Below, piece by piece: positions 5,225 through 23,894 of a stretch of DNA of 33,979 nt; position 1 is the stretch's first letter; each line of letters starts with the position of its first letter. The translations under genes and the position numbers were made by a program. The stretch is from assembly GCA_903905455.1 (NCBI GenBank), contig CAIVGN010000119.1, forward strand, positions 1 to 33,979, given 5' to 3'. The DNA comes from an uncultured Archangium sp. (GTDB lineage: Bacteria; Myxococcota; Myxococcia; Myxococcales; Myxococcaceae). The notes under the pieces are model-generated. The model worked only from the letters and a program-made list of their open reading frames with translations. It ran no database searches and was not told where the DNA came from.

Positions 5225-6183
5225 TGATGGACGTCGTGTCGCTGGGCGAGGCGCTGGTCGATTTCCTTCCCAACCGCAGGGGCCAGCTGGTGCGGGAGGT
5301 CACGCAGTGGACCCCGTGTCTCGGCGGCGCCCCGGCCAACGTCGCGGTGGGCGTCTGTCGGCTGGGCGCGAAGTCGGGCCTGGTGGGCGTCACCGGTGAA
5401 GACGAGTTCGGCCACTTCTTGAAGCAGGGCCTGAAGAAGGAAGGCGTCGACGTGCGCCACCTGCGCCAGACGGCCGAGGGCAAGACGGGCCTGGGCTTCG
5501 TCTCCCTCACGAAGTCCGGTGAGCGCAGCTTCACCTTCTACCGGACGCGCGCCGCCGAGACGTTCCTCGACCGGCGCGACACGAGCGGCGCCCGCAAGTA
5601 CCTGCGCGCCACCAAGGTGCTCCATGTGGGCACCAACTCGCTCATTCACGCCGCCGCCCGGGCCGCCGTCAGCGACGCGGTGAAGGACGCCTTCGAGGCC
5701 GGGCAGATCACCTCCACCGATCCCAACCTGCGGCTCCACCTGTGGAAGGACCCCGCGGTGCTGCGCCGGCTGCTGGGCGTGCTCTTCAAGCGCTGCGCAG
5801 TGGTGAAGCTCTCGGACGAGGAGATCGAGTTCGTCACCGGCACCCGCGACGTCGAGACCGCGCTGCGCTGGCTCGAGGACAAGGGGGTGGTGGTGGGCCT
5901 GGTGACCCTGGGCGCGAAGGGCGCGGCCCTGCGCTTCGGCGGCGAGACCCGCTACGTGCAGGCGCGCAAGGTGAAGGTCATCGACACCACCGGCGCCGGC
6001 GACGGCTTCACCGCGGGCTTCCTCTACGGCGTCACCCAGCTCTACGGCACGCGGGCGGCGCTGGAGTCAGCGGACATCGACGCCCTCGAGGGCCACGCGC
6101 GCTTCGGCTGCCTGGTGGGCTCGCACGTGGTGACGAAGCTCGGCGCGGTGGCCGGCCTGCCGACGCGCAAGCAGCTCGGCTAG
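5224..6183 (+). CDS. PfkB-family carbohydrate kinase (fructokinase-like)
   Basis: A ribokinase/PfkB-family sugar kinase of 319 residues, phosphorylating a sugar or nucleoside hydroxyl with ATP in the cytoplasm. The N-terminal signature is GGAPANVAVGVCRLGAKSG and the C-terminal one DTTGAGDGFTAGF (near residue 255), containing the catalytic base Asp of GAGD and the anion hole. The first sixteen residues, MMDVVSLGEALVDFLP, resemble fructokinases, but substrate cannot be read reliably. The ATG at 5224 overlaps the recO stop (TGATG); a second ATG at 5227 is equally possible. The stop codon shares bases with the stop of the convergent barrel gene: the palindrome CTAG at 6180-6183 ends both. Confidence 0.9.
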   Translation: MMDVVSLGEALVDFLPNRRGQLVREVTQWTPCLGGAPANVAVGVCRLGAKSGLVGVTGEDEFGHFLKQGLKKEGVDVRHLRQTAEGKTGLGFVSLTKSGERSFTFYRTRAAETFLDRRDTSGARKYLRATKVLHVGTNSLIHAAARAAVSDAVKDAFEAGQITSTDPNLRLHLWKDPAVLRRLLGVLFKRCAVVKLSDEEIEFVTGTRDVETALRWLEDKGVVVGLVTLGAKGAALRFGGETRYVQARKVKVIDTTGAGDGFTAGFLYGVTQLYGTRAALESADIDALEGHARFGCLVGSHVVTKLGAVAGLPTRKQLG

Positions 6184-16037: not shown

Positions 16038-16853
16038 ATGACCTTCCCGATCTTCGCGGCGCTCACGGTGCTCGCGGCCAACCCCTCGTTCCAGGACGTG
16101 GCGAAGAAGTTCAAGCCCGCCCCGCTGCCGCTGTCCTCGAAGGACGTCGCGGTGCCGAAGACGGGGCTCACGCCCGAGGAGATCTCCGCCCTCGGGTTCA
16201 TGAAGAGCACCTCGCCCCAGCTCGCACAGCTGCGGAAGTGGAAGGCGACCCCTGACCAGGACGAGACGCTGACCGTCTGGCCGGTGGCCTCCATCGCGCG
16301 CCCCGGGCTGACGCTGCTGCTGGTGCGCTTCGACCAGGAGATGCCGATGAGCTCCGACGCCGCGCTCTTCCTCCTCAGCTACGGGCCGCAGGGGGCGCTG
16401 ATCGACGGCGTGGGCTTCGCGGGCACCATGAGCAGCGAAGCGGGTGGGGCCGAGGACGTGGGGCGGCTGACCGCTGACGGCGCCCTCACGCGCAGCGGCA
16501 CGCTCTCGGTCCCCATGATGGAGGAGGGCTTGCCCGAGAAGCTGGTGATCACCTCGGAGCACCCGGTGAAGCTCACCGCGAGCGGCAAGTTCGAGGTGGC
16601 CGAGGAGCGCTTCACCACCCGCGACGGGGCGTTCATCGACCGCAAGTCGAAGGAAGAGCTGCGGATTTTCGGCGAGAAGGCCTTCTACCGGGGCAACGAC
16701 ACCAAGCCCTTCCAGGCCCTGACCCGCGAGGGTGACGCAGTGCGTTTCAAGAAGGGCGGCAAGCCCTACGGCCTGACCTGGGACGCCCGAAACGCGCTGA
16801 TCAACTGCAAGAACCCCGACGGTTCGGTGCAGGTGTTTACCCGCGAGTGGTGA
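16038..16853 (+). CDS. secreted protein of unknown function
   Basis: A 271-residue protein starting MTFPIFAALTVLAANPSFQD, a short signal-peptide-like N-terminus although its basic region is weak. The body is mixed alpha/beta: LTLLLVRFDQEMPMSSDAAL, then ALFLLSYGPQGALIDGVGF, with basic and aromatic strands toward the C-terminus. No family is recognised and no catalytic motif is evident. Its stop overlaps the first base of the Pho-box-like repeat that precedes the phosphatase operon, so it is upstream of that operon and probably separately expressed. Confidence 0.7.
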   Translation: MTFPIFAALTVLAANPSFQDVAKKFKPAPLPLSSKDVAVPKTGLTPEEISALGFMKSTSPQLAQLRKWKATPDQDETLTVWPVASIARPGLTLLLVRFDQEMPMSSDAALFLLSYGPQGALIDGVGFAGTMSSEAGGAEDVGRLTADGALTRSGTLSVPMMEEGLPEKLVITSEHPVKLTASGKFEVAEERFTTRDGAFIDRKSKEELRIFGEKAFYRGNDTKPFQALTREGDAVRFKKGGKPYGLTWDARNALINCKNPDGSVQVFTREW

Positions 16854-16870
16854 AGTCACTTTCTTGTCAC
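16853..16870 (+). promoter_or_regulatory. Pho-box-like 11-bp direct repeat
   Basis: AAGTCAC-TTTC-TTGTCAC places two (T/A)GTCAC half-sites exactly eleven bases apart, the geometry of the PhoB/PhoP Pho box (CTGTCAT, four A/T-rich bases, CTGTCAC). It is 34 bases upstream of the GTG of a PafA-like alkaline phosphatase that is followed by an OprO/OprP-like porin. Half-sites and spacing are seen; regulation by PhoP is inferred. Confidence 0.6.
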
Positions 16871-16904
16871 CTCGGGTCGGGGGAACGCGGGTAGAAGCCC
16901 GCCC

Positions 16905-18431
16905 GTGAACCGTCTCGTCGTCGTCCTCCTGCTCGCTGCGGTCCCGGCTCTCGCAGAGCGACCGCGCCTCGGCGTGGTCCTCGTCATCGATCAGCTCAGC
17001 GCCGACACGTTCAACGCGCGCCTCCCCAAGGTGACCGGCGGCATCAAGCGCCTGGTCAACGAGGGCTACGTGTTCCACGAGGGCCGCTACGAAGCCGCGC
17101 CGACCATCACCTCGGTGGGCCACGCGACGATCATGACCGGCGCGTACGGCGAGGTGCACGGCATCGTCGCCAACGATTGGATCGACGCGGAGACCGGCAA
17201 ACCCTGTCTCTCGACGCAGGACGCGGCGTACACCGTGCTCGGCCGCCCCGCGCAGGAGCGTGACGGCACGGCGCCCACCTGGTTGCGCGCCCCGACGCTC
17301 GCCGACGCCGTGCGTGCTTCCGACGACAAGGCCCTGGCGCTGAGCGTCTCGGCGAAGGATCGCTCGGCGATCCTCTGTGCCGGGCGAGCGGGCCTCGCGG
17401 TGTGGTTCGACGCCGAGGCGCCGATCTTCACCACCAGCACCTACTACGCGAAGGAGATCCCCTCCTTCGCCGTGCCCACCAACGAGAAGTTCGCGCAGAT
17501 GATCCTGAAGGGCACCTTCCAGTGGGGCCTGCCCGCGGGCGGCATCACCGGCAAGTCGCCGACGCTGCCTGCCGGTTCCGGGCGCGTGGGTGACAGCGAG
17601 CCCTTCGCCGAGCGCAAGGAGCTCCAGCCGATCCTCGACACCGCGGAGGTCGACGTGGCCCTGGAGGGCGTCAAGACCCTGGGCCTGGGCAAGGACGAGA
17701 TCCCCGACCTGTTGACCATCAGCTTCTCGGGCCACGATCGCCTCGGCCACGAGTTCGGGCCTGACTCGAAGGAGAGCCTCGACGACTTCCTCCACGTCGA
17801 CCAGGAGATCGGCCGCCTCTTGACCGCGCTCGACACGCTGGTCGGCAAGGGCCGCTACGTCGTGGCCTTCACCTCGGATCACGGCGTGGCGCCGGTGCCG
17901 GAGGTGGCGCAGAAGCGGGGCCTCGACGCGGGCCGCATCGACATGAAGAAGCTGCGCGAGGTGCTCGACGCCGACCTCGACGAGCAGCTCGGCCGCCAGG
18001 ACTGGTTCGCCGGATCGAAGACCCCGGGCCTCACCTTCACCCCGGCGCTGCGCGCGAAGGCGCTGCCCCAGCTGGCGCGGTTGCAGAAGCTCGCGAAGGC
18101 GCAGCCGGGGGTGATCGATCTCCTCTCGCTGCCTGATCTCCGCGGGCCGTTCGCGGCGCTGTTCGCCCGCGGCGCCTTCGTGGGCCGCTCGCCGGACCTC
18201 ATCGTGATCACCAAGCCGTACTGGACGTACAACTCGGTCGACCGCACCGGTCACGCGAGCCCGTACCTCTACGATCGCGCGGTGCCGGTGATCTTCTTCG
18301 GCGCCAACGTGAAGAAGGGGCAGGGCGGCACGGCGGAGATCATCCACGTCGCCCCCACCCTCTCGCGCCTCATGTCCGTTTCCCCGCCCGCCGCCGCCCA
18401 GGGCCGCGCGCTCGACGAAGTTTTCCGCTGA
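16905..18431 (+). CDS. PafA-like alkaline phosphatase, secreted
   Basis: An alkaline-phosphatase-superfamily phosphomonoesterase of 508 residues with a signal peptide (VNRLVVVLLLAAVPALAE). Metal and catalytic residues: D29 in VLVIDQLSAD, nucleophile T69 in ITSVGHATIMTG, N90 in VANDW, K151 and R153 in AKDRSAI, D278/H282 in SGHDRLGHEFG, D325/H326 in TSDHGVAP and H450 in DRTGHASP. The N and K-x-R set is what distinguishes PafA phosphate monoesterases from NPP diesterases. Known PafA enzymes are phosphate-insensitive periplasmic phosphatases that release phosphate from organic esters. The GTG start at 16905 suits the signal. The gene heads a five-gene run with gaps of at most 23 bases (counting the start chosen for the porin) and sits behind a Pho-box-like site. 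Confidence 0.88.
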   Translation: MNRLVVVLLLAAVPALAERPRLGVVLVIDQLSADTFNARLPKVTGGIKRLVNEGYVFHEGRYEAAPTITSVGHATIMTGAYGEVHGIVANDWIDAETGKPCLSTQDAAYTVLGRPAQERDGTAPTWLRAPTLADAVRASDDKALALSVSAKDRSAILCAGRAGLAVWFDAEAPIFTTSTYYAKEIPSFAVPTNEKFAQMILKGTFQWGLPAGGITGKSPTLPAGSGRVGDSEPFAERKELQPILDTAEVDVALEGVKTLGLGKDEIPDLLTISFSGHDRLGHEFGPDSKESLDDFLHVDQEIGRLLTALDTLVGKGRYVVAFTSDHGVAPVPEVAQKRGLDAGRIDMKKLREVLDADLDEQLGRQDWFAGSKTPGLTFTPALRAKALPQLARLQKLAKAQPGVIDLLSLPDLRGPFAALFARGAFVGRSPDLIVITKPYWTYNSVDRTGHASPYLYDRAVPVIFFGANVKKGQGGTAEIIHVAPTLSRLMSVSPPAAAQGRALDEVFR

Positions 18432-18454
18432 CCTAGAGAAGGATGCTCCCCGCC

Positions 18455-19603
18455 ATGTCGCTCGCCCTCGTGTTGTCCCTCGCGCTGTCCCAGGCCCCGG
18501 TTGAGGCCGCGCCGGCCGTCGCCGCGCCCGAGAAGTCCGCAGTCGTCGAAGTCGCCGCCCCCGTCGTCGCCGCGACGCCGGAAGTGCCGTGGTGGCAGCG
18601 CGTCACCCTCAGTGGCTTCGCGCGCGTGGGCCTTTTCTACACGTTCCCCTTCCGCGACGAGCAGCTGGTCGGTGGCAACGGCGGCTTTCGCCTCGCCGAC
18701 TTCCGCCTGAACCTCGACTTCCACCCCATCGAGAAGCTCACCATCTACACCTCGGTCGAGCTCGCCGCGCCGCTGGTCGACCCGACCGACCCGCTCACCG
18801 GGCGCCGCATCATCGACCTGCGTGACGCGTACGTGCAGTACGACGTGTGCGAGGGCTTCCGCGTGCGCGTGGGCCAGCAGCGCGCGCCGTATTACGCCGA
18901 GATGTTGATGTCGGACGGCGCGGTGCCCTTCGTGAGCCGCTCGGTGCTCGCCAACGGCATCAACCCGCCCGACGGCTTCGGTCCGCGCAACTACCTCGCG
19001 CCGGATCGCCAGCTGGGCGTGCAGTTCTTCAGCAAGCGCCTGGGCAGCGAGCTGCTCGGCTTCAAGTACGCGGTCGGCGTCTTCAACGGCAACGGCCAGA
19101 ACCAGCTCTTCAACGACAACAACTCGGTGCAGCCGGTGGCGCGCGTCGAGTTCGACGTGAAGCAGATCGTCACCCTCGGCCTCAACGGCTACTACAACCA
19201 GCGCACCGACGGCGTGCGGCCCAACCGCCTCACCAGCAACCAGATCGCCTACGGCGCGGACCTCACGGCCCAGAGCAACGGCTTCAGCGCGATGGTGGCG
19301 TTCCTCGGCAAGTCGTCCACCTACAGCTACGCGGGGCTCCCGCCGGACTCGTCGATGGGCGGCCTGGCGCAGGTGCGCTACTTCCACGAGGCGACGGGCC
19401 TCGAGGCCGCGGTGCGTGGCGCCCTCTACGATCCCTCGAGCGCGCAGACCGACGACCAGGTGATCGAGATCGCCGCGATGATCGGCTGGAAGCCCTTCAA
19501 GCTGCCGTTCCGCGTGCTCGCCCAGTACACGCACCGTGAAGAAGAGCCGCGCGCCTCGTACCCGAATGACAGCGTGGACGTCATGCTCCACGCGGTGTGG
19601 TGA
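18455..19603 (+). CDS. OprO/OprP-family phosphate-selective porin
   Basis: An outer-membrane porin of the OprO/OprP family, which admits phosphate or polyphosphate. After the signal (MSLALVLSLALSQAPVEA) and an Ala/Pro/Val-rich stretch, the barrel begins RVTLSGFARVGLFYTFPF. It includes FRLADFRLNLDFHPIEKLTI, the DAYVQYDVCEGFRVRVGQQR segment typical of the family, and ends DVMLHAVW with a terminal aromatic. I prefer the ATG at 18455, eleven bases from AGAAGGA; the ATG at 18443 abuts that site and is less likely. It lies 23 bases from the phosphatase stop and three bases before the next gene, which fits uptake of phosphate released by the upstream enzyme. Confidence 0.85.
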   Translation: MSLALVLSLALSQAPVEAAPAVAAPEKSAVVEVAAPVVAATPEVPWWQRVTLSGFARVGLFYTFPFRDEQLVGGNGGFRLADFRLNLDFHPIEKLTIYTSVELAAPLVDPTDPLTGRRIIDLRDAYVQYDVCEGFRVRVGQQRAPYYAEMLMSDGAVPFVSRSVLANGINPPDGFGPRNYLAPDRQLGVQFFSKRLGSELLGFKYAVGVFNGNGQNQLFNDNNSVQPVARVEFDVKQIVTLGLNGYYNQRTDGVRPNRLTSNQIAYGADLTAQSNGFSAMVAFLGKSSTYSYAGLPPDSSMGGLAQVRYFHEATGLEAAVRGALYDPSSAQTDDQVIEIAAMIGWKPFKLPFRVLAQYTHREEEPRASYPNDSVDVMLHAVW

Positions 19604-19606
19604 CCC

Positions 19607-22600
19607 ATGCGACGACTTCTCTTCCTCGCGCTCGCGGTCTCAAGCGCGTGCAGCAAGACGACGCCCCCGGCGCGCGCCTTTCAGATCACCACCCGCACCG
19701 AGTTGATCGGCGGCAAGCGCGGCCTGGGTGACGTCGAGGCGGCCCCGAGGGACGCGACCGACCTCATCGGTGGCAAGCGGGCCAGCGGCGCCGACGGCGA
19801 CTACAAGCTGACCAACGGGGTGGTGCACGCCATCATCCAGAACGTGGGCACCAGCCGCGGCTTCGGCAGCTTCGGTGGCTCGCTCATCGACATCGATCTC
19901 GTGCGCGGCGGCAACGCCAGCGCCACGAGCGGGGTGATGGGCAACGACTTCTTCACCGAGATGTTCCCTGCGTTCTTCCTCACCGCGCTCGAGCCCGCCC
20001 AGGTCTCGGTGCTCTCCGACGGCTCCGACGGGGGCGCCGCGGCGATTCGCGTCTCGGGCCGCAGCGGCGCGTTCATCTCGCTGGTCAAGGCGTTCACCGA
20101 GGTCGTCGACCCCAAGGTCGCCCTCGACTTCACCTGCGACTACATCCTCGAGCCGGGCAAGCAGTACCTGAAGATCGTCGTCACCGTGGCCAACAACACC
20201 GAGAGCCCCGTGTCGTGGGGTCTCAACGTGCCCTTCGGCTTCGTGACCCTGCTCGGTGAAGGCCAGCGGCTCTTCGTGCCCGGCGAGGCCGGCTTCGACA
20301 TGCGCTACCACCTCGAGGAGGTCTACAAGCGCCCGGCGTCCCTCGACGCGATCCCCGGTGAAGTGAGCTCCATGTGGGCCACCGAGGGTGACGGCGTGAG
20401 CTACGCCTTCGTCGCCGGCCAGCACCCCAACGGGAGCTACCTCGACAACAAGCCCGACTACTACCCATTGGCGAAGAAGGACTCGCTCCTCATCCCCATC
20501 GCCTCGTCGAGCTTCCTCGGCACGTACTTCGCGAAGGCGCCGCAGAACCTGCCCAAGGGCTCGAGCTACAGCTACACCGCGTACCTCGCGGTCGGCTCGG
20601 GTGACGTGGCCAGCGTGCAGAAGGTCGTCTACGACTTGCGCGACGTCACGGTGCGCGGCGGTGGCAAGGAGTTCGTCAACCACGAGGTCACGGTCTACGG
20701 GACGATCTCCGGCATGGTGCGCGAGGAGCGCACGCTGCAGCCGCTGGGCGGAGTCTCGGTGGTGCTGCGCGATGCCGCGGGCAACTACGTGACCCAGGCG
20801 ACGACGCTGAAGAACGGTGCGTGGACGGCGCCGGTGCCCCCCGGCAAGTACACGGGCTCGGCGCTGGATCGCACGCGCAGCGTGGCGCGGGTCACCGAGC
20901 CGGTGGAGGTCACCGAAACGACCTCGGGCCGCATGGACTTCACGCTGGAGATGGCCGGCGAGCTGCGCGCGGTGGTGCGCGACGACAAGGGCCGCGCGTT
21001 GCCCTCGAAGATCAGCGTGGTGGGCACCTACGAGAGCCCCGACGTGACGCTGCCTCCGCGCAAGTTCCTCTACGACCTGCCCATCGGCGAGCGCTACCGC
21101 ACGTCGGATCTCATCGACGACGCGTCCGATGACCCGGCCACGCGGCGCTACCTCGAGCGCGCGCTCTTCGCTCCCTCGGGCACCGCGGGCACGAGCCTGC
21201 GTCCCGGCAAGTACATCGTCTACGCCTCGCGTGGCCCGGAGTACGACCTCCAGCAGCAGGAGGTCGAGGTCAAGGCAGGCCAGACCACGAACGTCGGCTT
21301 CACGCTCACCCAGGTGGTGCCCACGCCCGGGTGGATCAGCGGCGACTTCCACGTGCACTCGGTGAAGTCCGTCGACAGCGACATGAACCTCGACGCGCGC
21401 GTCAGCAGCTACGCAGTGGAGGGCGTGGATCTCGTCACCTCGACGGATCACAACTACGTCGCCGACTACGCGCCCACCATCGACCAGCTGCAGCTCAACG
21501 ACTGGCTGGCGAGCACCGTGGGCCTCGAGCTCACCTCGCTCGAGATGGGTCACTTCAACGCCTTTCCCCTGATGCTCCAGCCGGGGCCCGTGCAGCACGG
21601 GAGCTTCCGCTGGTTCTTCCGCCCGCCCGGGGAACTCTTCGCCCAGCTGCGCGCGCTGGGAAAAGACCCGCAGACCACCGTGGTCCAGGTCAACCACCCG
21701 CGAGACACGATCCTCGGGTACTTCAACGCCTTCAACATCTCGAACTACACCGGCAACCCGTTGCCCGCGTATTCGTCGGTGTCGCTGGACGCCTCGCCGT
21801 TGCCTGACGGCTCGAAGTCTCCCTACGACGCCTCGAACTTCTCCACCGAGTTCGACGCCATGGAGGTCTTCAACGGCAAGCGCTTCGACATCATGTTCCC
21901 CTACCGCATGCCCACCGCGGCCAACGCGCCCCCCGGGGCCGAGCCGAACATCCGCAAGTGCGGCGCGGGCGAGCCCTCGACGGAAGACTGCCTGCCCCCC
22001 GCGGGCGAGGTGCTCAACCGGGTGGTGAAGGTCAGCAAGGCGGGCGAGGCCGATCGTTTCGAGCTCCAGCCCCTGCAGCCCGGCGCACAGAACGACTGGT
22101 TCGCGCTGCTCTCGAAGGGCTTCAAGACGGTGGCCACGGGCAACTCCGACTCGCACGGGGACAAGGCCGAAGCGGGCCTGCCGCGCACGTACATCAAGGT
22201 CGGCAAGACTGCGGATGGCACCATGCGCGGGCTCGACCAGGCCGCGGTCTACACGGCCATGAGCCAGGGCCGCGCGGTGGCCACCAACGGGCCGATCCTC
22301 GACCTGACGATCAACGGACAGGAGCTCGGCACCACGGTGATCGCCGGTGACGGGGAGATCGACGTGCACATCTCGGTGAAGGCCGCGCCGTGGGTGGACA
22401 TCAAGCGCGTCACCCTGCGCATCGGCAGCACCAGCGGGCCGGTGCGCGAACCCCGGGAGCTCGACGTGTTCGACCTCGGCCCCGGGCGCGACGTGAGCCG
22501 CCTGGAGATCGACAAGCACTACGCTAACATCCCCGACAACTCCTTCATCCTGCTCGAGGCCCGCGGCACCGAGTCGATGTGGCCGGTCTTCACCCCCTAC

Positions 22601-22870
22601 GAGATTCCCTCATTGGAGATCAGCGACGCGGTCGGCGTCATCGGCGCGTCGTTCGGCTTCGGCGCCACCTTCGGCAAGTACAAGCCCACGATGAAGCAGA
22701 CGGTGCAGCCCTACGGCTTCACCAACCCCATCTGGGTCAATCGCCAGGCGCGGCAGCCGCTCACGGTGCAGAAGCGGGTGATCGCGGTGTCCAACGACAA
22801 GGCCTTCGTGCCCCGCGTGCTGCCCGACGTGCGCAAGCTGTTCCATGCGTTCCACAGCGACCCGGAATAG
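19607..22870 (+). CDS. PHP-domain CehA/McbA-like metallohydrolase lipoprotein
   Basis: A large lipoprotein (1087 residues). The signal MRRLLFLALAVSSAC has its lipobox Cys at 15. A long N-terminal beta-rich region includes an Ig/carboxypeptidase-regulatory-like domain (GTISGMVREERTLQPLGGVS, about 365-430). The PHP phosphoesterase-type domain lies in the second half: DFHVHS (near 580), STDHN (near 611), NHPRD (near 700) and GNSDSH (near 845), the metal-binding motifs of PHP/CehA-McbA proteins. The family includes carbaryl hydrolase, but PHP members are mostly phosphoesterases. With a phosphatase and phosphate porin in the same run, a phosphoester substrate is the best guess. A C-terminal Ig-like region follows from about 900. 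Confidence 0.85.
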   Translation: MRRLLFLALAVSSACSKTTPPARAFQITTRTELIGGKRGLGDVEAAPRDATDLIGGKRASGADGDYKLTNGVVHAIIQNVGTSRGFGSFGGSLIDIDLVRGGNASATSGVMGNDFFTEMFPAFFLTALEPAQVSVLSDGSDGGAAAIRVSGRSGAFISLVKAFTEVVDPKVALDFTCDYILEPGKQYLKIVVTVANNTESPVSWGLNVPFGFVTLLGEGQRLFVPGEAGFDMRYHLEEVYKRPASLDAIPGEVSSMWATEGDGVSYAFVAGQHPNGSYLDNKPDYYPLAKKDSLLIPIASSSFLGTYFAKAPQNLPKGSSYSYTAYLAVGSGDVASVQKVVYDLRDVTVRGGGKEFVNHEVTVYGTISGMVREERTLQPLGGVSVVLRDAAGNYVTQATTLKNGAWTAPVPPGKYTGSALDRTRSVARVTEPVEVTETTSGRMDFTLEMAGELRAVVRDDKGRALPSKISVVGTYESPDVTLPPRKFLYDLPIGERYRTSDLIDDASDDPATRRYLERALFAPSGTAGTSLRPGKYIVYASRGPEYDLQQQEVEVKAGQTTNVGFTLTQVVPTPGWISGDFHVHSVKSVDSDMNLDARVSSYAVEGVDLVTSTDHNYVADYAPTIDQLQLNDWLASTVGLELTSLEMGHFNAFPLMLQPGPVQHGSFRWFFRPPGELFAQLRALGKDPQTTVVQVNHPRDTILGYFNAFNISNYTGNPLPAYSSVSLDASPLPDGSKSPYDASNFSTEFDAMEVFNGKRFDIMFPYRMPTAANAPPGAEPNIRKCGAGEPSTEDCLPPAGEVLNRVVKVSKAGEADRFELQPLQPGAQNDWFALLSKGFKTVATGNSDSHGDKAEAGLPRTYIKVGKTADGTMRGLDQAAVYTAMSQGRAVATNGPILDLTINGQELGTTVIAGDGEIDVHISVKAAPWVDIKRVTLRIGSTSGPVREPRELDVFDLGPGRDVSRLEIDKHYANIPDNSFILLEARGTESMWPVFTPYEIPSLEISDAVGVIGASFGFGATFGKYKPTMKQTVQPYGFTNPIWVNRQARQPLTVQKRVIAVSNDKAFVPRVLPDVRKLFHAFHSDPE

Positions 22871-23402
22871 CGCGCTGCTGCTCGCGCTCGTCGCGGGCGT
22901 GGCGTGGGGTCACCCCAAGGGCTTCCACAAGAAGCTCACCATCACCGTCACCCCCACCCGGGTGTCGGTGCTGGTGGTGATGGACGTGGACTCGGGGGAG
23001 CGGTGCTTGCTGCTCCGCGAGGCCGTCGACTCGAACCGCGACGGGGTGCTCAAGGGCGAAGAGGTGACGCGGCTCAAGGAGCGCCTGGTGAAGCTCGCCA
23101 CGCAACCGCTGAAGCTGGGCCTCTCGGGCGCGCCGCTGCCGGTGCAGGTCAAGGAGTCCAAGGTGTCGTTGCGGGACGACCCGCGGGCCAACGACTCGCC
23201 GCTCTCGGTGGCGCTGCTGCTGGAGATCGATCACCCCCACGCCGTCGCCGAGGGCATGGAGCTCGAGGTCACCGACACCGCGCCCGACACCTCGAGCATC
23301 GTGCTCCAGGTCTTCCAGGCAGGTTCCCTGGCGCCGCCCTTCGAGCAGGAAGTGCCGAGCGGCCAGAAGACGAAGATCCGCATGGGTGTGCTCAAGGAGT
23401 GA
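22845..23402 (+). CDS. secreted protein with one EF-hand-like loop
   Basis: A 185-residue protein with signal peptide MRSTATRNSALLLALVAGVAWG and mature start HPKGFHKKLTI. The 12-residue loop DSNRDGVLKGEE at 62-73 fits the EF-hand calcium site (ligands at 1, 3, 5, 9 or 12). The rest is beta-rich (ALLLEIDHPHAVAEGMELEV). The ATG at 22845 lies 26 bases inside the end of the PHP gene in another frame, so the genes overlap and are likely coupled. No family is recognised. A calcium-binding partner for the phosphatase/PHP enzymes is conceivable but unproven. Confidence 0.75.
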   Translation: MRSTATRNSALLLALVAGVAWGHPKGFHKKLTITVTPTRVSVLVVMDVDSGERCLLLREAVDSNRDGVLKGEEVTRLKERLVKLATQPLKLGLSGAPLPVQVKESKVSLRDDPRANDSPLSVALLLEIDHPHAVAEGMELEVTDTAPDTSSIVLQVFQAGSLAPPFEQEVPSGQKTKIRMGVLKE

Positions 23403-23405
23403 GCG

Positions 23406-23894
23406 ATGGCTGAAGTGACGCTGGAGCTGAAGTCCCTCCCCAAGGCCGAGGCCTACCGGCAGCTCGCCCAGCACGTGCGCGGGGTGCTCGACGGGGTCGA
23501 CGACGAGATCACCGCCATGGCGACCATGAGCTGCCTGGTGCACCACGCCTTTGGCCACCTGTGGACCGGGTTCTACCGGGTGGTGACGCCGGGCAGGCTG
23601 CTGCGGGTGGGCCCCTACCAGGGCACCCTGGGCTGCCTGGAGATCGCCTTTGGGCGGGGCGTGTGCGGGGCGGCGGCGGCCACCGGTTTGACGCAGGTGG
23701 TCGAAGACGTGCACGCCTTCCCCGGCCACATCGCCTGTGACGGCCGCAGCGCCTCGGAGATCGTGGTGCCGGTGTTCGACCGCCGGGGAGCGCTGATCGC
23801 GGTCTTCGACGTTGACAGCGAGCGCCAAGGCACCTTCGACGGGGTAGACCGGGACCACTTGGAGGCCCTGGTGGGGTGGTTTCGTGGCGCCTGA
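23406..23894 (+). CDS. msrC: free methionine-(R)-sulfoxide reductase (GAF fold)
   Basis: A GAF-fold enzyme reducing free methionine-R-sulfoxide, like E. coli YebR (MsrC). It has 162 residues. The three family cysteines are present at 77, 87 and 111, in LGCLEIAFGRGVCGAAAA and HAFPGHIACDGRSASEIVVP, with the same 10- and 24-residue spacings as YebR (84, 94, 118), so it should be active. The ATG at 23406 is three bases after the previous stop and ends the five-gene run. Its place with secreted phosphatase genes is unusual and may be coincidental to operon membership. Confidence 0.9.
   Translation: MAEVTLELKSLPKAEAYRQLAQHVRGVLDGVDDEITAMATMSCLVHHAFGHLWTGFYRVVTPGRLLRVGPYQGTLGCLEIAFGRGVCGAAAATGLTQVVEDVHAFPGHIACDGRSASEIVVPVFDRRGALIAVFDVDSERQGTFDGVDRDHLEALVGWFRGA

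Follow-up and report, generated by a model that had tools for sequence, protein, structure and literature searches.

The DNA stretch analysed here (the window, 33,979 nucleotides) corresponds to the complete contig C119 of an uncultured Archangium sp. assembly of 8.6 Mb, which comprises 251 contigs and is 97.8% complete. Its nearest named relatives are metagenome assemblies of Archangium/Myxococcaceae within the Myxococcota. An 11-bp direct repeat on its forward strand precedes five closely spaced genes, which had been predicted to form a phosphate-regulated (Pho) scavenging operon. The first four, all on the forward strand, encode a secreted PafA-like alkaline phosphatase of 508 aa (16905..18431), an outer-membrane porin of the Porin_O_P family of 386 aa (18443..19603), a PHP metallohydrolase of the CehA/McbA family of 1087 aa that is a predicted lipoprotein (19607..22870), and a secreted, anglerase-like, putatively metal-binding protein of 185 aa, originally described as an EF-hand protein (22845..23402). 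The gene for the free Met-R-sulfoxide reductase fRMsr follows (23406..23894). The open reading frame coordinates confirm both the order of these genes and their spacing, which ranges from a 26-base overlap between the PHP and EF-like genes to 23 bases: the PafA and porin genes are 11 bases apart (23 with the second Met as start), and 3 bases each separate the porin from the PHP gene and the EF-like gene from fRMsr.

The repeat, AAGTCAC-TTTC-TTGTCAC (16853..16870, forward strand), is made up of two 7-mers identical at 5/7 positions. Its first base coincides with the final stop-codon base of an upstream gene for a 271-aa protein, and 34 bp separate the repeat from the GTG of the PafA gene. A Pho box is defined as two 7-nt direct repeats with an 11-nt period (PMC4415409), which this sequence fits. 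Using a scoring matrix derived solely from pst, pho and porin promoter sites of relatives, the repeat scores 19.3, with the runner-up site in the 34 kb window at 9.5; the repeat is thus by far the top Pho-box-like site of the window. It is also single-copy in the entire assembly, even allowing 3 mismatches. Further downstream, a putative -10 element (TAGAAG, 16892..16897, forward strand) 7 nt before the start codon would give rise to a near-leaderless transcript, and its position is shared by most PafA orthologues. The complete layout reads TGTCAC-N21-TAGAAG-N7-GTG. No sigma70 promoters or terminators above chance level were found on the operon strand. TGTCAC-N21-TAGAAG was also considered as a genome-wide motif and rejected as a general promoter class, because it has fewer matches than the control at ≤2 mismatches.

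Among 61 genomes of the order, the exact motif TGTCAC-N5-TGTCAC occurs at 37 sites, compared with 2 for the reversed pattern. At least 7 of the 30 sites fetched as loci are located at pstS/pst, PhoU_div (DUF47) or Porin_O_P genes. The sequences CTGTCACACGTTTGTCAC, CTGTCACACATCTGTCAC, CTGTCACCTCCCCGTCAC and TCGTCACGGATCCGTCAC lie a short distance upstream of pstS genes from relatives within the order. In the Archangium genome itself, three half-sites in tandem, GGTCAC-N5-CGTCAC-N5-TGTAAC, stand before the operon for a DUF47-PiT phosphate transporter and are followed by TTGAAG close to the ATG, a layout equal to that before PafA with TTGAAG in place of TAGAAG. This region (locus L054, about 5500-5560; G000:C132) has the appearance of a complex Pho operator. 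The genome's own pstS promoter contains no clean repeat and was dropped as a reference Pho site. Because the motif is enriched and precedes pstS, DUF47/PiT and O/P-porin genes in the order, we take the repeat to be, most likely, a genuine Pho box, as the original prediction had proposed from its PhoB-like period.

Comparison of PafA orthologues points in the same direction. In genomes G002, G003, G005, G018 and G022, the second half-site (GTCAC) lies exactly 21 nt from TAGA; it reads AGTCAC in G022 and TGTCAC in the other four as well as in the window. The half-site thus keeps a fixed distance in several genera whose flanks are otherwise unrelated. The top-scoring paired sites are found in G002 and G022 and at loci L137, L140 and L141, with the last three sharing the layout. 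Judged from these sequences, we are very probably dealing with an authentic Pho operator whose first half-site has decayed in some lineages.

Among solved structures, the PafA-like protein best matches 5TJ3, over its full length (E 1.7e-56). Its catalytic residues Thr67, Asn90, Lys151 and Arg153 and the zinc ligands of PafA are intact, and D29, T67, N90, K151, R153, D278, H282, D325, H326 and H450 are invariant in eight orthologues, in agreement with the predicted phosphatase. Since it reaches 293.9 bits against NCBIfam NF042991, where the equivalog cut-off is 650 bits, we describe it as PafA-like, from a divergent clade, and do not file it as an equivalog. The porin belongs to Pfam Porin_O_P (27.6 bits, gathering cut-off 20.9, partial coverage), and a single-sequence phmmer search of the PDB gave no hit, solved OprP/OprO included. 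Of the predicted OprO/P porin, the family membership is supported. A second Porin_O_P-family gene is located elsewhere in the genome, divergent from pstS (L053, 7295-8509; G000:C173). The intergenic region between the two contains no clean Pho box, and this porin may be the actual phosphate porin.

The PHP protein scores 115.8 bits against NF038032 (CehA/McbA; cut-off 80), and a Cys15 that is nearly invariant among orthologues suits a lipoprotein. Its structure model (mean predicted local distance difference test, pLDDT, 73, with parts of low confidence) can be divided into three regions. The first, at about residues 20-360 (19664..20686), is a predicted galactose-mutarotase-like beta-supersandwich that aligns to GH38, GalM and galactosaminidase domains with VIA-align Z 12-14. 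It is followed by a transthyretin-like/CarboxypepD_reg domain (residues 365-450; 20699..20956; Pfam 44.4 bits), whose model aligns to 5aq0 with Z 13.2 and a root-mean-square deviation (rmsd) of 1.7. The PHP catalytic region (21002..22405, residues 466-933; all three on the forward strand) has as its best fold match 3E38 (Z 15.5, rmsd 3.0, 212 residues), the solved structure of a protein homologous to the zinc phosphodiesterase Sb-PDE (PMC11656708). All nine metal ligands (H582, H584, D590, H615, E641, H649, H697, D848 and H850), assigned by motif against the list for the Sb-PDE group (PMC11656708) and not by residue-level superposition, show no change among 18 diverse orthologues, the most distant of them at 35% identity. 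Phosphodiesterases are known but uncommon among PHP proteins; the metal bound by Sb-PDE is mainly zinc (PMC5460133, PMC11656708). Foldseek on the whole 1087-aa model returned only beta-rich chance rows, and the domains were resolved by the second aligner. The genome holds 14 PHP-protein matches; the CehA/McbA-type family is strongly expanded in this lineage. Three PHP paralogue loci of the genome have neither a porin nor an EF-like gene.

The fourth protein has no family match in profile libraries. Its AlphaFold model (pLDDT 88) is an immunoglobulin-like beta-sandwich, which among solved structures comes closest to the copper-bound Ang-1 domain of a HupE/UreJ-2 protein (9GCE; Foldseek E 7e-7; VIA Z 11.3 and rmsd 3.2 across 137 residues). 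The zinc proteins ZrgA (Z 8.4) and PA4063 (Z 7.8) follow, and unrelated sandwiches are found at Z about 6.5. The copper in 9GCE is held by an N-terminal histidine (PMC12537917). The predicted first mature residue of the fourth protein, directly after AxA, is also a histidine, His23 (codon at 22911..22913, forward strand), which is invariant in two alignments and followed by a second histidine in 'GFH'. The model thus resembles a histidine-brace metal-binding domain of the Ang-1 type. Because the HupE/UreJ-2 permease fusion is missing, we regard the protein as probably working like Ang-1 without filing it as such. In a comparison by hhalign, alignments of the EF-like family gave no match to single HupE proteins, and the likeness to the HupE ectodomain is visible in the fold search only.

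The calcium loop of the original prediction is present and canonical (DSNRDGVLKGEE, residues 62-73, D62-x-N-x-D-G-x-L-x-x-x-E73; 23028..23063, forward strand). It is conserved in orthologues, with D62, G67 and E73 invariant and D66 nearly so, and lies between two helices inserted between strands 2 and 3, where 9GCE is also helical. EF-hand pairing is absent, as this is a single loop inside a beta-sandwich protein. Relatives in Lujinxingia and other Bradymonadales-type genomes, encoded downstream of PHP genes, match the window family at the profile level (probability 97.7%, E 1.4e-12); they keep an 'AH' start and have the loop in 4/7 cases. The N-terminal histidine is thus more widely conserved than the loop, and the EF-hand description applies to a conserved element of the protein, not to its main identity.

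The fourth protein is unlikely to be a conventional EF-hand calcium binder that stabilises PafA or the PHP enzyme. The canonical, conserved loop would suit this role, and weak profile matches to EF-hand proteins do exist, restricted to the loop region. Against it stand the lone, unpaired loop within an immunoglobulin-like sandwich, the fold matches to the metal proteins Ang-1, ZrgA and PA4063, and the wider conservation of the histidine. Separately, we found HupE/UreJ_2 metal permease genes near or just upstream of porin-PHP pairs (L153, 6677-7750; L157, 1-507; L183, 4968-5915). In L153 and L157 the gene is located just upstream of the porin; no stand-alone EF-like gene was found downstream in L153, and L157 ends too early to assess. 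The permease genes beside porin-PHP pairs suggest that anglerase domains have passed between permease-bound and stand-alone forms.

To place the operon in a wider context, GTDB genomes were scanned with the PHP alignment, which yielded 51 loci. A porin is encoded directly upstream of the PHP gene in 39/46 assessable loci across the Myxococcota, a count that includes three loci with slight overlap of the porin and PHP matches, and the seven porin-less loci form one separate PHP clade in the tree. An EF-like gene is located downstream in 27/41 loci, where seven of the counted loci had supplied sequences to the search model. PafA, by comparison, occurs in one lineage only, in 16 genomes and always at the murJ-rpsA locus. 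The module occurs without it at L143, L144, L148 and L159, and genomes lacking PafA still have the module between murJ and rpsA. The ancestral unit is hence a porin, a CehA/McbA-type PHP lipoprotein and an anglerase-like ('EF-hand') gene. As PafA is found in one lineage only and no consistent Pho box is present at PafA-less loci, Pho control most likely arrived with PafA and is not an ancestral defining feature of the module; the box most likely goes with PafA and not with the remaining genes. What looked like a fusion of the porin and PHP genes in genomes G006 and G014 proved to be an artefact of long alternative open reading frames, since the two reading frames differ.

Taken as a whole, the repeat, the motif enrichment, the synteny, the intact active-site residues and the predicted folds lead us to favour, at slightly better than even odds (roughly 0.55), a metal-dependent, organophosphate-scavenging phosphate-starvation operon built on the older three-gene module, which came under Pho control together with PafA. 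In this scenario, a PhoB/PhoP-type regulator would bind the 11-bp repeat at low phosphate and drive expression of PafA, the porin, the PHP lipoprotein and the anglerase-like protein. The PHP lipoprotein, lipid-anchored at the membrane, would cleave phosphodiesters, and its mutarotase-like domain would bind substrates that probably contain sugars, perhaps, in view of this domain, sugar-bearing polymers. PafA would remove phosphate from monoesters, and the porin would admit phosphate or small organophosphates. The anglerase-like protein may capture a transition metal via its N-terminal histidine, either supplying it to its putative partners, the metal-dependent hydrolases, or shielding them from it, and its EF loop may serve as a calcium-stabilised element. 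The neighbours of one distant locus support the organophosphate reading: at L150 (5839-14573), an OPA-like MFS transporter, the porin, the PHP protein, a HAD phosphatase and a GlpT-type transporter form one row, and the GlpT-type transporter passes the GlpT equivalog cut-off.

Several observations weigh against such an operon. Gene order is kept in relatives, but the direct repeat, whose conservation the original prediction had named as a check, is kept only in part: one half-site is found before PafA in G003 and G005 and neither in G004 and G023, and by matrix score the site is weak or absent in G004, G006 and G023. The box is located 21 nt from the -10-like element, compared with 10 nt at several pst promoters, and the porin genes at PafA-less porin-PHP loci have no consistent Pho box. 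'Phosphate-selective' is, for this porin, a family label only. The named member of the PHP family, CehA, hydrolyses a carbamate, which makes a phosphoester substrate less than certain. Furthermore, the Ang-1 match is that of a predicted fold at 15% identity, and the fourth protein (185 aa) stands alone without a HupE permease.

In the main rival explanation, which we consider less likely, the core of porin, PHP protein and anglerase serves a non-phosphate substrate, such as a glycan-linked ester or a carbamate, or transition-metal uptake, with PafA and the Pho box inserted upstream in one lineage. The box-less PafA-less loci, the retention of the module at the murJ-rpsA site in genomes without PafA, the carbohydrate-type domain of the PHP protein and the HupE/UreJ_2 genes upstream of the porin in L153 and L157, with no downstream EF-like gene found in L153, are all consistent with it. 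It is opposed by a PHP domain that is nearest in fold to a phosphoesterase and carries the full set of trinuclear-site ligands, by the GlpT-type neighbours and HAD phosphatase in L150, and by the co-occurrence of PafA and the PHP-porin pair in 16 genomes. A chance or unrelated repeat before five constitutive genes is improbable, as the absence of the repeat from some orthologues and a genome-wide site count near chance level at ≤2 mismatches (164 vs 115 in the control) are set against a score far above every other window site, a half-site whose distance stays constant across several genera that otherwise differ in their flanks, and the presence of this motif at pst/pho genes within the order.

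The individual parts of the proposed phosphate-starvation operon have known counterparts. The PafA-like protein of the window shares with PafA of Elizabethkingia (5TJ3) and Flavobacterium the nucleophile Thr, the Asn, the Lys-x-Arg and the Zn ligands, and differs in belonging to a divergent clade encoded with a porin, a PHP protein and an anglerase-like protein; Flavobacterium PafA has been reported to be active at both high and low phosphate (PMC8812569). Sb-PDE/No-PDE and 3E38 (PMC5460133, PMC11656708) likewise have a secreted PHP domain with the nine-ligand trinuclear site, whereas the window protein is a 1087-aa lipoprotein with added mutarotase-like and transthyretin-like domains. With Ang-1 of HupE/UreJ-2 (9GCE, PMC12537917), the fourth protein has in common the predicted immunoglobulin-like sandwich, the helices between strands 2 and 3 and an N-terminal His after the signal peptide (predicted cleavage here). 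In contrast to Ang-1, it is a stand-alone secreted protein at 15% identity, without a permease, with an EF loop and encoded downstream of a PHP enzyme. Pho regulon units of the classical kind (PhoB box; OprP/OprO together with phosphatases; PMC4415409) also combine two 7-mers of 11-bp period with a phosphatase and a porin, whereas the half-site here is TTGTCAC, the partner genes are new, and the box is set back from the -10 by an additional 11-bp turn in comparison with several pst promoters.

The literature searched, with subscription papers outside its coverage, describes PafA, PHP diesterases, anglerases and Pho boxes each separately; as the original prediction had supposed, no account of a PHP lipoprotein and an EF-hand protein together with PafA was found. 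A porin, a putative metal-dependent PHP phosphoesterase and a small, probably metal-binding protein are linked across much of the phylum, and we found no prior description of this linkage. If the proposed function is correct, the operon would constitute a unit for phosphorus acquisition in predatory and soil Myxococcota, bringing together a pore of the outer membrane, a phosphodiesterase held by a lipid anchor and a protein that captures metal, and would probably let a soil myxobacterium relative strip phosphate from organic molecules under scarcity. It would also provide a concrete partner enzyme for the newly named anglerase fold, and YTGTCAC-N4-YTGTCAC can serve as a working Pho-box consensus for a group with a poorly mapped phosphate regulon. 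More tentatively, and at less than even odds, we propose a phylum-wide outer-surface module for scavenging phosphorus in which a secreted metal 'fisher' with an N-terminal histidine and a calcium loop, freed from its permease, is devoted to loading or protecting a porin-linked PHP phosphodiesterase, and in which the addition of PafA and the Pho box in one lineage brought the whole module under phosphate control.

The fifth gene, fRMsr, encodes a GAF-fold protein in which the cysteines of VCG and IACD are present. Its predicted membership of the operon is not upheld: it is 2-3 kb away in G003, G005 and G022, still beside rpsA, and some genomes, G009 and G030 among them, keep the operon without fRMsr at the locus. 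In three relatives, differing inserts of 2-3 kb between the EF-like gene and fRMsr (L033, 2076-4553; L034, 11348-13576; L036, 1142-4230) mark a variable spot before fRMsr-rpsA. At the other end, the 271-aa protein preceding PafA (16038-16853) is secreted-looking and of no known family; it is kept at 40-51% in G003, G004 and G005 and not in G002. Lastly, the sole exact TGTCAC-N5-TGTCAC in the Archangium genome (L055, G000:C224:47500-52500, site at 2502) is located between the genes for a 552-aa protein of no known family and a divergently encoded OPA-like MFS transporter. Sites of this type are kept before the same protein in relatives (L111, L113-L115, L126 and L132), and the 552-aa protein is likely, from these sites, an uncharacterised member of the Pho regulon.

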